Source of the DNA: Polaribacter sp. NJDZ03 | Lineage (GTDB): Bacteria; Bacteroidota; Bacteroidia; Flavobacteriales; Flavobacteriaceae | Direction of reading: 5' to 3' | Length of the DNA: 64,000 bases | NCBI RefSeq assembly: GCF_019263805.1 | Contig: NZ_CP079195.1 | Span: 3,521,001 to 3,585,000, forward strand | Shown here: positions 29,564 to 58,821 of the stretch, piece after piece | How positions within the stretch are numbered: position 1 is the stretch's first letter | How the letters are laid out: every line of letters begins with the position of its first letter | Position numbers and translations under genes: made by a program | The notes under the pieces: model-generated | Told to the model about the DNA's origin: nothing | Seen by the model: only the letters and a program-made list of their open reading frames with translations | The model's database searches: none

Positions 29564-29647
29564 TTTTTAGTCACTGTTAAGTATTTTTACTTATGTGATG
29601 TGGCATTCTTACTTCAATTTTATATTTTACTTTTTTGTAGCTATTTC

Positions 29648-29745
29648 CAGCTTTCCGTTATATCTTTTTTCTTCTGTTCTCGATACAAATTTTTCATTCT
29701 TCAAAATTCACTCGAACTGACAGAAAAAAGGATGCCACTTCAATC
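29648..29745. repeat. Nested palindromic repeats (one repeat inside another)
   Basis: The outer unit (AGCTTTCCGTTATATCTTTTT ... AAAAAGGATGCCACTTCAATC) matches the unit at 58657-58720 between trpE and trpG. Here its middle is replaced by a second unit, GTTCTCGATACAA ... TCACTCGAACTGACAG, which also occurs at 60570-60620. The rest of 29564-29830 shows no gene. Confidence 0.7.
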
Positions 29746-29830
29746 TGGGCTAGACTTGTTTGCTGGCTTATAGTACTGGAGTGATTTTTATTCTGTATCT
29801 ATGTTTTCTATGTTTCTATGTGTTCAATTT

Positions 29831-48025: not shown

Positions 48026-48053
48026 TTTGTACCATTTTTTCTGTATATATTTG
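48026..48053 (+). promoter_or_regulatory. Promoter of the gat operon
   Basis: TTTG at 48026-48029 and TATATTTG at 48046-48053 are 16 bases apart, slightly short of the usual 19. Transcription should start near 48058, about 13 bases before the leader ATG. Confidence 0.6.
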
Positions 48054-48070
48054 TCATCAGTATAACAAAA

Positions 48071-48118
48071 ATGACAAACAATAATAACAATCGTAATTTC
48101 AATAATCCTAATTGTTAG
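48071..48118 (+). CDS. Asn-rich leader peptide (MTNNNNNRNFNNPNC)
   Basis: This is a 15-codon ORF with ATG at 48071 and TAG at 48116. Nine of fifteen codons are Asn, five of them consecutive. It lies between the promoter and the intrinsic terminator of the gat operon. Its layout equals that of the trp leader at 57028. The proposed role is sensing Asn-tRNA: a ribosome stalled on Asn codons leaves the segment after the stop codon free. Too short for standard gene finders. Translation is inferred. Confidence 0.75.
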   Translation: MTNNNNNRNFNNPNC

Positions 48119-48180
48119 GACGGAAGGTTGTTGTTTAGAAATATATAAATAAAGCCTTCCTAATCGGAAGGCTTTTTTTT
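48105..48180 (+). promoter_or_regulatory. Transcription attenuator of the gat operon (Asn)
   Basis: Three pairing segments are seen. TCCTAA (48106-48111) can pair with TTAGGA (48115-48120) across the leader stop. GGAAGG (48122-48127) directly after it can pair with CCTTCC (48155-48160), forming an antiterminator. The terminator stem is AAAGCCTTCC (48151-48160) with GGAAGGCTTT (48166-48175), perfect over ten bases, followed by T-run to 48180. A ribosome at the TAG stop would cover GGAAGG and let the terminator form. A ribosome stalled at the Asn codons would leave GGAAGG free. Confidence 0.75.
48151..48180 (+). terminator. Intrinsic terminator in the gat leader
   Basis: A ten-base perfect stem (AAAGCCTTCC / GGAAGGCTTT) around TAATC is followed by eight T in total. 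It stands 18 bases before the first structural gene of the operon, which only makes sense as an attenuator. Confidence 0.88.
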
Positions 48181-48198
48181 GAATCTAAAAATAAAGAC

Positions 48199-48465
48199 AT
48201 GAGTAAAATAATGACGGTAGACATTTTGTCTAGTATTAAAGGAGCAAAACCATCGGAATCGGTGAATCAGTTATTTGAGGTAATTAAAAAAGCAAATACA
48301 TCAAATACTACTTCTAATACCAATCATAATAATGCGGTGTCTTTAGATGATTTAAGAGAAGATGTGGTTATTGATAGTCCGCAAGCGGAAAAGCAAATCA
48401 TTATCGAAAACTTCCCAAAAGAAAAAAACGGCTATTTAGTAGTTTCTAAAGTGATAGAAGAATAA
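48199..48465 (+). CDS. gatC: Divergent GatC-like subunit of Asp-tRNA(Asn)/Glu-tRNA(Gln) amidotransferase
   Basis: This is an 88-residue protein. The second half, SLDDLREDVVIDSPQAEKQ, then FPKEKNGYLVVSKVIEE, fits the GatC C-terminus (LRED, then a Gly-Tyr before the VPKVIE-type end). The first half is unusual: helix 1 of GatC (HIAKLARL type) is missing or replaced by MTVDILSSIKGAKPSES, and helix 2 (VNQLFEVIKKA) is followed by an Asn/Thr-rich tract NTSNTTSNTNHNN. It is first in the operon and ends one base before the gatA ATG. GatC normally braces GatA against GatB. The call rests on the tail and the context. Confidence 0.75.
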   Translation: MSKIMTVDILSSIKGAKPSESVNQLFEVIKKANTSNTTSNTNHNNAVSLDDLREDVVIDSPQAEKQIIIENFPKEKNGYLVVSKVIEE

Positions 48466-53369: not shown

Positions 53370-54524
53370 ATGGATAAGGTAAAAACTTTAGTAGATGAAT
53401 TTAAGTCAGATAAATTTACTAAAAAATTAAAAAGGAAGTTGAAAAGTAATTTAAGGAGTAAAAATTTTATGGATATTATGTCTATTTCAAGAAGAGAAAC
53501 TTCACATAGTTCATTTATTCATTGGATTTTAGATTTCAATAATAATTATGACTTAAAAAAAAATCCGTTAAAAATTTTTCTAAAATTATTATTAGAGAAT
53601 GATAATAGTAAAGAAGCTACTGTTGAATGGGAATTAAGGAATTGTTTATTAAATAATTTGCAATCAGGTAACTTAAAAATAAAAAATAAATTTTCTTATT
53701 TTAATACCGAAGAAAAAGTAGTTAAAGGTAGGGTAGATATAATTTTAAAGTTAAAAATTGAATATTTAGATTTAAAAAGAAAGAAAGTGATAAATTCTTT
53801 AAATATTCTTATAGAAAATAAAGTGGATAGTAAAGAAAATGATTCACAAACATTAAAGTATGAAGAATTTTTAAAGAATAAAAAAGGGATTATTTTATTT
53901 ACCTATTTATCTCCATCAAAGGAAGTACAATATAAGCCTAAATCTGATAAGTTTATTCATATTTCTTACCAAGAATTTTTAGATAAGGTAATACAGCCTT
54001 CTTTAAAAAGAACAGAGAATGATAAAGTTAAATTTTATTTAGGAGAATATATAACTAATTTAGGAATTGTTAATAAAAATATTATGGCATTAAGTCGCGA
54101 GGATAAAAAATTATTAGAAACGTTTTGGAATAAAAATCAAGAACTAATTAGATTAGCTCTAGAGGCTAGGTTAAATAATGAGGACTTATCTGAAACTGAA
54201 AAAAATAACACGAAAAATGTTATTGATTCAATTGAAAGGGAGACAGTTGGTAAGTATGTTCGTGCAACATTAGAGAAGTTTTTAATAGAAAAAATTTTAC
54301 CAGAAGAAGAAATAAATAGATTAACTGAAAAAGAATATTCAAAAAATGTTTTTGATATAAATTACCCTGTCTTGCATCAAATTAAACGAGAAAGCAAAAA
54401 AAGAAAAGACCATTATTGGAAAAAATCAGTAAAGTCATATGATAAAAAATATGTTATTTGTTGTGAATGGATAGAGGGAATTAGAGATAATTTTGAACAA
54501 TGGGAATTAACCTACTTAGATTAG
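53370..54524 (+). CDS. Orphan PD-(D/E)XK nuclease-family protein (PDDEXK_4-like)
   Basis: This is a 384-residue protein. The N-terminal RRETSHSSFIHWILDFNNNYDL is typical of the PDDEXK_4 group. The catalytic core shows Asp123 in GRVDIILKL, then Glu149-x-Lys151 in ILIENKVDSKENDSQTLKYEEF, the spacing of a PD-(D/E)XK site, with Gln160 and Tyr164 after it. No methylase or helicase partner is adjacent. The C-terminus (IKRESKKRKDHYWKKSVKSY) is basic. The Lys- and Asn-rich coding differs from the neighbouring operons and suggests an acquired gene. A role in defence is only a guess. Confidence 0.8.
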   Translation: MDKVKTLVDEFKSDKFTKKLKRKLKSNLRSKNFMDIMSISRRETSHSSFIHWILDFNNNYDLKKNPLKIFLKLLLENDNSKEATVEWELRNCLLNNLQSGNLKIKNKFSYFNTEEKVVKGRVDIILKLKIEYLDLKRKKVINSLNILIENKVDSKENDSQTLKYEEFLKNKKGIILFTYLSPSKEVQYKPKSDKFIHISYQEFLDKVIQPSLKRTENDKVKFYLGEYITNLGIVNKNIMALSREDKKLLETFWNKNQELIRLALEARLNNEDLSETEKNNTKNVIDSIERETVGKYVRATLEKFLIEKILPEEEINRLTEKEYSKNVFDINYPVLHQIKRESKKRKDHYWKKSVKSYDKKYVICCEWIEGIRDNFEQWELTYLD

Positions 54525-56988: not shown

Positions 56989-57020
56989 ATTGCCTATTTT
57001 AAAAATCTATCTTACTTTTG
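56989..57020 (+). promoter_or_regulatory. Promoter of the trp operon
   Basis: ATTG at 56989-56992 and TACTTTTG at 57013-57020 are 20 bases apart. The leader ATG is only 7 bases after the box, so the leader peptide is almost leaderless. Confidence 0.75.
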
Positions 57021-57027
57021 TTTCACA

Positions 57028-57078
57028 ATGAAAAATAATACAATAAATACAGGTTGGTGGAACTCTCTTATATCATAA
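57028..57078 (+). CDS. trpL: trp leader peptide (MKNNTINTGWWNSLIS)
   Basis: This is a 16-codon ORF with two consecutive Trp codons at 57055-57060, between the trp promoter and an intrinsic terminator. Stalling at the Trp codons when Trp-tRNA is scarce should favour antitermination. This matches the Bacteroid-trp RNA class described from comparative genomics. Confidence 0.88.
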   Translation: MKNNTINTGWWNSLIS

Positions 57079-57143
57079 GTGAGAAGAAACCTATATGTAT
57101 ACAATATATTAAAAAAGGCTTATCTCACGATAAGCCTTTTTTT
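57065..57143 (+). promoter_or_regulatory. trp attenuator (Bacteroid-trp type)
   Basis: A first hairpin CTCTCTTAT/ATAAGTGAG covers the end of the leader ORF. GTGAGA (57079-57084), directly after the leader stop, can pair with TCTCAC (57123-57128), which lies in the left arm and loop of the terminator. The terminator stem is GGCTTATC/GATAAGCC with T7. Confidence 0.85.
57112..57143 (+). terminator. Intrinsic terminator in the trp leader
   Basis: An eight-base perfect stem GGCTTATC (57117-57124) / GATAAGCC (57129-57136), loop TCAC, flanked by A6 and T7. It lies 110 bases before trpE. Confidence 0.92.
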
Positions 57144-58645: not shown

Positions 58646-58821
58646 GCGTTCGAGCGGGCTTTCCACTATATCTTTTTATTTTAAAAAGAAAATAAAAAGG
58701 ATGCCGTTTCAATCCCTAACGCAAATTGCAAGTTTGCCAATATCCTGAAAGGTTTTTAGAACCTTGTAGGTATAAATCAAAAATAGTAAAACACCTACAA
58801 GGTTTTTGAAACCTTGCAGGA
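58646..58821. repeat. Two repeat elements between trpE and trpG
   Basis: First, at about 58655-58720, comes the GGCTTTCCACTATATCTTTTT ... AAAAAGGATGCCG unit (also at 29648). Then, at 58742-58821, follow two palindromes, CCTGAAAGGTTTTTAGAACCTTGTAGGT and ACCTACAAGGTTTTTGAAACCTTGCAGG in shortened form, separated by 21 bases. The second pair has the same layout as the unit at 59418-59500. Confidence 0.8.

Follow-up and report, generated by a model that had tools for sequence, protein, structure and literature searches.

A predicted trp-type attenuator with an asparagine-codon leader upstream of the gatCAB-aspRS operon in Polaribacter

How, and in response to what, is an operon for tRNA-dependent amidation controlled in a flavobacterium? 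The question is raised by the DNA directly in front of gatC-gatA-gatB/aspRS in a 64-kb window of Polaribacter sp. NJDZ03 (the window being the whole stretch of 64,000 nucleotides that was analysed). A preliminary description made from the letters alone had pointed to a promoter, a 15-codon open reading frame (ORF) with nine Asn codons, five of them in a row, the motif GGAAGG three bases past its stop codon and a ten-base terminator, and all of these are present. We conclude that positions 48046-48180 very probably act as a trp-type attenuator in which the translating ribosome senses Asn-tRNA(Asn) and so controls transcription of the asparagine-making operon of this bacterium. The leader, the alternative helices, their conservation and the pattern of co-occurrence with other genes come from sequences; ribosome stalling, termination, polymerase pausing and the specificity of the aspartyl-tRNA synthetase (AspRS) are what we infer from them.

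The attenuator unit directly precedes the operon, and gyrB lies upstream on the opposite strand. The five consecutive Asn codons are codons 3-7 of the leader MTNNNNNRNFNNPNC, and the stop codon is followed by GAC and then by GGAAGG at 48122-48127. Ten pairs between AAAGCCTTCC (48151-48160) and GGAAGGCTTT (48166-48175) form the terminator stem, and the T run extends to 48180. A terminator scan of 1.2 kb returned three sites where 0.2 were expected, and two of them are this stem read on its two strands. The upstream element TATATTTG is classed as a Bacteroidota-type promoter by the -7 box consensus, which we take to be TAnnTTTG; the sigma-70 promoter scan does not cover promoters of this type. 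With both strands of the window counted, the leader is the sole ORF of 8-30 codons that has at least eight Asn codons, and only three such ORFs in total appeared in 20 dinucleotide shuffles (about 0.15 per shuffle). This rarity, together with the repetition of the leader at orthologous sites in many genera, places the Asn leader above chance expectation.

Table 1. Features of the attenuator unit and the gat operon, in window coordinates.
Feature	Coordinates	Strand	Evidence
TATATTTG, Bacteroidota-type -7 promoter box	48046..48053	+	Read in the sequence, 17 nt before the leader ATG
Leader ORF MTNNNNNRNFNNPNC*, 15 codons, nine Asn	48071..48118 (ATG 48071, TAG 48116-48118)	+	Sequence; 56 distinct loci
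Region 1, Asn codons pairing with region 2	48076..48091	+	Minimum-energy fold; RNAalifold consensus
Stop-codon hairpin, CCTAA...TTAGG	48107..48119	+	RNAalifold consensus, paired changes
Region 2, GGAAGGTTGTTGTTTA, common to 1:2 and 2:3	48122..48137	+	Folds and RNAalifold
Region 3, terminator left arm and predicted antiterminator partner of region 2	48146..48160	+	2:3 fold
Region 4, right arm of the terminator stem, with the T run	48166..48180	+	Terminator scan, fold
gatC, 88 aa, divergent, Asn-rich linker	48199..48465	+	Pfam GatC 24.8 bits, cut-off 23
gatA, 466 aa	48467..49867	+	Pfam Amidase; NCBIfam gatA best family, 430.6 bits, below curated cut-off 481.1
gatB/aspRS fusion, 1111 aa	49867..53202	+	Profile matches; AspRS half with RDHG

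Relatives of GatA were taken from two sources, 249 genomes of the same family, 40 of which were positive at E 1e-60 (the genome of the window included), and named genome contigs, from which the best 80 of 233 were used. These gave 118 readable gatC upstream regions including that of the window, with one locus (L086, gatC at a contig end) and one genome (G170, where the gatA contig starts inside the gene) excluded. The leader is present in 61 of the 118, 56 of them distinct, and is Asn-rich in each. Our first rule for picking leaders required the Asn run to be followed by F and by P or S; a rule free of this demand (at least five Asn and at least 40% Asn) returns the same 61, none of which lacks F-N-N-P/S. 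Homologous leaders built on codons other than Asn had been named beforehand as a sign against the proposal, and the only short ORF rich in another single amino acid, a Leu-rich one in a leaderless upstream (L129), is positioned after its terminator. All 56 distinct leaders end in TAG, and the 56 loci have GGAAGG or a close variant as well as CCTTCC in the terminator. In the 120 nt before the leader ATG every one of the 56 has either TATATTTG or TATCTTTG, at a spacing of 15-19 nt in 45; a TTG 16-22 nt upstream of the -7 box is seen in only 12.

The covariance model R1, built for the unit, matches 26 of the 249 family genomes at E 2.5e-14 or better, with the next match at 1.9e-5. Of these 26, 25 belong to the 40 GatA-positive genomes, and the remaining one is G124, in which gatC lies close to a contig end. 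There are over a hundred weak matches (E 1.9e-5 to 0.01); among those inspected, the ones in G114, G246 and G087 and a second one in the genome of the window are plain terminators without Asn ORFs.

The predicted helices have the layout of a full trp-type attenuator, in which region 1 pairs with region 2, region 2 with region 3, and region 3 with region 4. In the fold of the window, 1:2 joins the Asn codons to GUUGUUGUUU, and the region 2 consensus is GGAAGGUURUUGUU; when the leaders are folded one by one, at least six nucleotides of region 2 pair with the side of the Asn codons in all 56 loci. RNAalifold, with the alignment as its only input, pairs two stretches of region 2, RUUGU with ACAAU in the Asn codons and the GGAAG positions with the UUUC that surrounds the Phe codon, and places a hairpin UCCUA/UAGGA across the stop codon in addition to the terminator. 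Fold z-scores in the window are -5.8 for 2:3 (-15.7 kcal/mol) and -4.3 for the terminator, and values below -2 are reached among the 56 loci by 3:4 in all 56, by 2:3 in 53 and by 1:2 in 48. For the consensus set of 1:2, stop hairpin and 3:4, 98.9% of alignment cells pair, against a mean of 97.8% in shuffles and with none of 500 shuffles reaching this level; slid versions give 45-67%, a comparison biased in favour of the consensus because the structure was derived from the tested alignment.

Compensatory changes are of two kinds. First, covariation in the terminator stem, which had been proposed as a check, is present at two stem pairs (three loci in all), and also at the loop-closing pair. Second, the stop hairpin has a two-sided change from C-G to U-A in three loci, two of them near relatives, and in all three AGG has become AGA together with a Pro to Ser change (CCT to TCT). 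Two loci in which the stop codon lies further downstream still keep UUAGG, so the hairpin is not a by-product of the stop codon. Codon usage adds a further observation: as far as position -4, 92 of 194 Asn codons are AAC, and beyond it one of 306 is (Fisher 4e-44, a value that ignores kinship and refers to a split position chosen after the codons had been viewed). From this uneven placement, synonymous codon choice in the all-Asn stretch looks constrained at the RNA level, as expected if RNA structure matters. The logic of ribosome-mediated attenuation that had been suggested at the outset appears supported by the conserved leader and the predicted alternative of antiterminator and terminator, and also by two predicted elements that the suggestion did not include, the 1:2 pairing and the stop hairpin.

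A simple account of how the unit might work is as follows. When Asn-tRNA is plentiful, the ribosome would reach the TAG and cover GGAAGG in region 2, 3:4 would form and transcription would stop at the T run. When Asn-tRNA is scarce, a ribosome stalled in the Asn run would cover region 1, 2:3 would form and gatCAB-aspRS would be transcribed. A ribosome covers about a dozen bases past its A site; held at most of the Asn codons it would leave GGAAGG free, whereas at the stop codon it would not. Were no ribosome present, region 1 and the UUUC around the Phe codon would pair with region 2, leaving region 3 free to form 3:4, and the operon would be off. The stop-codon hairpin, which lies inside the 1:2 structure, may pause RNA polymerase and so keep it in step with the ribosome. 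As for the enzymes, a non-discriminating AspRS fused to GatB would charge tRNA(Asn) with Asp and GatCAB would amidate this to Asn-tRNA(Asn); what the attenuator senses would then be the direct product of the operon, since these enzymes yield the charged tRNA.

The conserved end of the leader could be explained differently, as a nascent-chain arrest peptide in which NFNNPN itself, and not the supply of Asn-tRNA, stalls the ribosome. Phe is present in 56 of 56 loci and Pro in 53, so that both are conserved like Asn, and F-N-N-P/S also emerges under the rule that does not demand F or P. However, there is an RNA-level reason for both codons, since UUC pairs with GGAA of region 2 and CCU with AGG of the stop hairpin, and Pro gives way to Ser in three loci precisely where AGG has become AGA. 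The Asn run moreover varies in length and accepts a single Arg, Ile, Ser, Leu or Thr inside it, unlike a strict arrest peptide, and we give this explanation only a slim chance.

The genes present in these genomes bear on what the operon is for. The genome of the window has a full asparaginyl-tRNA synthetase (AsnRS, 608.9 bits), a glutaminyl-tRNA synthetase (GlnRS, 702.1 bits) and a separate AspRS, and with AsnRS and GlnRS present neither Asn-tRNA nor Gln-tRNA formation needs GatCAB there. No AsnA was found in it, no canonical AsnB, and no AsnB above the curated cut-off of 267; there are three weak superfamily matches, the best at 65 bits. Across the family, canonical AsnB, defined by similarity to the G240 protein at E 1e-120, occurs in 185 of 249 genomes, in none of the 40 with gatA and in 185 of the 209 without it (Fisher 8e-30, kinship ignored). 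Both states are found in two genera, g1, with gat in the genome of the window and AsnB in G131, and g7, with gat in G006 and AsnB in G240. The canonical asnB match of G131 (G131:C1:285799-287433), a genome without gat, has an internal TGA and TAA and is possibly a decayed gene. AsnA is present in 15 of the 249 genomes and in none of the 40 gat genomes; 17 genomes have neither gatA, canonical AsnB nor AsnA, and these include G124 with its cut gat operon.

Because AsnRS, GlnRS and a second AspRS are present and canonical AsnB never co-occurs, the gat operon is best read as a tRNA-dependent asparagine-biosynthesis operon, standing where a canonical asparagine synthetase is missing. The preliminary description had assigned the operon to the Asn-tRNA pathway, which fits its direct product, but with AsnRS in the cell this is not the only route to Asn-tRNA, and the role is rather asparagine biosynthesis. 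An earlier survey proposes the same in general terms: where AsnRS, GlnRS and GatCAB occur together and an asparagine synthetase is absent, tRNA would be the site of asparagine synthesis, and the Bacteroidetes are among the clades it names (PMC4206432). A competing assignment is that the operon serves Gln-tRNA(Gln) or the general supply of Asn-tRNA, with the Asn leader incidental or in some other role. GatCAB is able to serve both tRNAs, and in three gat genomes without AsnRS the operon must supply Asn-tRNA. But GlnRS is present in the genome of the window (the one genome checked for it), AsnRS in 37 of the 40 gat genomes, the fusion partner of GatB is AspRS rather than GluRS, and the strict exclusion of canonical AsnB fits asparagine biosynthesis; such a role is about as improbable as an arrest peptide.

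The proposal of an Asn-sensing attenuator on an asparagine-making operon has to be weighed against several results that do not favour it. The preliminary description had also named covariation of GGAAGG and CCTTCC as a check, and none is found: region 2:3 has no two-sided pair, since CCTTCC is invariant, and 445 of 500 shuffles pair equally well, so that what argues for the predicted antiterminator (90.5% of alignment cells paired) is energy and conservation. The placement of AAC appears only mildly optimised for the region 1/2 duplex, a slight tendency, with a mean of 38% of Asn-codon permutations within leaders giving a duplex at least as stable. Conservation at homologous loci, as had been anticipated, holds for the 61 leaders but fails in the other 57 of 118 gat upstreams, which lack the whole unit. 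A quickly built GatA tree of 117 labelled rows, made without bootstrap, requires 16 changes of the leader state, seven of them forced by well-supported branches; it is the one analysis here that takes kinship into account. A non-canonical protein of the AsnB superfamily exceeds the TIGR01536 cut-off in 14 of the 40 gat genomes, as some member does in 209 of the 249 family genomes. Finally, the RDHG motif of the fused AspRS is presumably a mark of a non-discriminating enzyme, and a supporting paper on the P. aeruginosa AspRS was not found.

Among the 57 leaderless upstreams, a TTTTGTAATTTT-like promoter sequence lies within 90 nt of gatC in 55, and a terminator within 200 nt in five. Leader-bearing rows stand at the base of the family's clade in the GatA tree and there are none in the outgroup family, and the history of the leader is most simply described as a probable early gain followed by repeated loss. 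The three gat genomes without an AsnRS match (G180, G228 and G237) are all leaderless (p 0.046, kinship ignored), which is no more than suggestive of a link between loss of the leader and loss of AsnRS; in these the gat operon would be the sole source of Asn-tRNA, apparently unattenuated.

Two further mechanisms can be set against ribosome-mediated attenuation at this locus. One is attenuation by tRNA binding, as in a T-box, or by a protein; the short ORF would then be there by chance. At gathering score the Asn unit matches neither a T-box nor any other Rfam family, RF01692 included, and all 56 loci keep the frame, start and stop of the ORF, whose Asn codons also make up region 1, which makes this even less likely than the alternatives above. 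The other, an ordinary terminator of an upstream unit beside a chance Asn-rich ORF, might be entertained in an A+T-rich genome with A+T-rich Asn codons, but gyrB lies on the other strand, such ORFs are rare in shuffles, and conservation of the unit refutes it, leaving a negligible probability.

The fused AspRS has RDHG at a position where the alignment gives RDHG in PDB 4wj3, and where 1efw and the E. coli chains have RDLG; we take 4wj3 to be an AspRS of the Asp/Asn type, and the species of the compared chains are likewise assumed. The separate AspRS of the same genome (584 aa) has RDKG and is 39% identical to the fused one. GatC scores 25.2 bits with the NCBIfam gatC model, under the cut-off of 47.1. 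Both tRNA(Asn) genes found in the genome have U1-A72 (the acceptor stem was read by eye), the pair that bacterial GatCAB requires in tRNA(Asn) according to passages of PMC4206432. The GatB-AspRS fusion is possibly a covalent transamidosome.

The fusion also exists outside the family, in at least nine of 375 genomes of the class (G432, G403, G340, G259, G373, G459, G486, G304 and, partially, G534); among the matches listed all are from one other family, with 58-69% identity, and at least G259 and G373 have a separate AspRS as well. Eight of the nine upstream regions were examined and have neither an Asn-rich ORF nor a terminator. A separate peculiarity of the operon is the GatC linker, which averages about 41% Asn (113 distinct GatC sequences, crudely delimited) whether or not the leader is present, even though asparagine should be what this operon makes.

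Asn-rich ORFs with terminators are also found in front of asparagine synthetase genes, where they were picked for their Asn content and by folding of the terminators rather than for conservation. With asnA known in 15 family genomes and 18 class matches, and the upstream regions of G048 and G255 left out, such leaders precede asnA in four of the 14 family upstreams examined (tandem in G241, G007 and G033, single in G053) and in four of the 17 examined in the rest of the class (G306 and G365, and tandem in G521 and G559). R1 marks the asnA upstreams of G241 (2.6e-4) and G053 (0.009), both lying among its weak matches. In the tandem units (L163, L165, L169, L225 and L226, in G241, G007, G033, G521 and G559 respectively) each ORF has its own terminator, and the second ORF has a Pro-Pro stretch (PPPGG, SPPG, TPPGG, SPP); in G241 and G007 this second ORF continues through the terminator. 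For canonical asnB, one of 20 upstreams (L184, in G234) has an Asn-rich ORF, MFSYLINNKNNNNYYAMP, and a strong terminator. Each of these cases is weaker than the gat leader. On balance we lean towards a Bacteroidota Asn-tRNA attenuation regulon, placed before gatCAB-aspRS, before asnA (sometimes in tandem) and occasionally before asnB, in which GatB and a non-discriminating AspRS in one polypeptide would form a built-in transamidosome whose product is read directly, and in which the attenuator would have been shed repeatedly for a plain promoter.

Elsewhere in the window, a PD-(D/E)XK nuclease superfamily protein (Pfam PF14281) is encoded just downstream of the gat operon at 53370-54524, and the two ORFs after it have no family match in profile searches. 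Two Flavo-1 RNAs (Rfam RF01705) lie at 29640-29755 and 58648-58727 (minus strand).

The mechanism is classic, and what is new, as far as the literature was searched, is its specificity for Asn before a gat operon. A search of the open-licence literature found no description of gat or asnA genes preceded by an Asn leader. In the portions consulted, a Flavobacterium psychrophilum transcriptome refers in general to amino-acid operons attenuated through leader peptides, and 'asparag' does not occur in its main text (PMC9723704), and a Bacteroides thetaiotaomicron map likewise has no mention of an asparagine leader (PMC7366714). The locus offers a clear genetic case of an operon for tRNA-dependent amino acid synthesis that should be controlled through the codons its product serves, and it suggests a reason for GatCAB in flavobacteria that have AsnRS and GlnRS, namely that it is found where an asparagine synthetase is missing. 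It further predicts asparagine control in a widespread family, would provide an Asn sensor that reads translation, and, in the natural GatB-AspRS fusion, makes available a system for the study of channelling.

Several known systems resemble parts of this arrangement. In Clostridium acetobutylicum, work attributed to Saad and colleagues from 2012 and 2013 reportedly describes T-box control of tRNA-dependent amidation, in which the status of tRNA(Asn) governs transcription of an AspRS-GatCAB operon; there, uncharged tRNA is said to bind the RNA, whereas here, in another phylum, translation of Asn codons would be the sensor. Bdellovibrio, Deinococcus and Thermus have AsnRS, GlnRS and GatCAB without asparagine synthetase, and passages of the same survey report that five of 18 genomes of this kind, each from Deinococcus-Thermus, have a second AspRS, which is archaeal in type, in contrast to the bacterial-type enzyme fused to GatB here, in an operon with a putative Asn attenuator (PMC4206432). 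Closer to hand, Bacteroid-trp RNA (Rfam RF01692) is also a leader RNA of Bacteroidota that encodes a short peptide, but with Trp codons in place of Asn; one lies in this window at 57008-57124, with the leader MKNNTINTGWWNSLIS (read by eye), and is the only RF01692 match in it. A further likeness is to the trp, his, leu and thr leader attenuators of E. coli: they too have a leader peptide in which the regulated amino acid abounds, four segments with alternative pairings (predicted ones in the Polaribacter unit), a stop codon beside segment 2 and an intrinsic terminator. The Polaribacter unit departs from them in its specificity for Asn, in the extra covarying hairpin around the stop codon and in its target, an operon for tRNA-dependent amidation whose product would be the sensed aminoacyl-tRNA itself.
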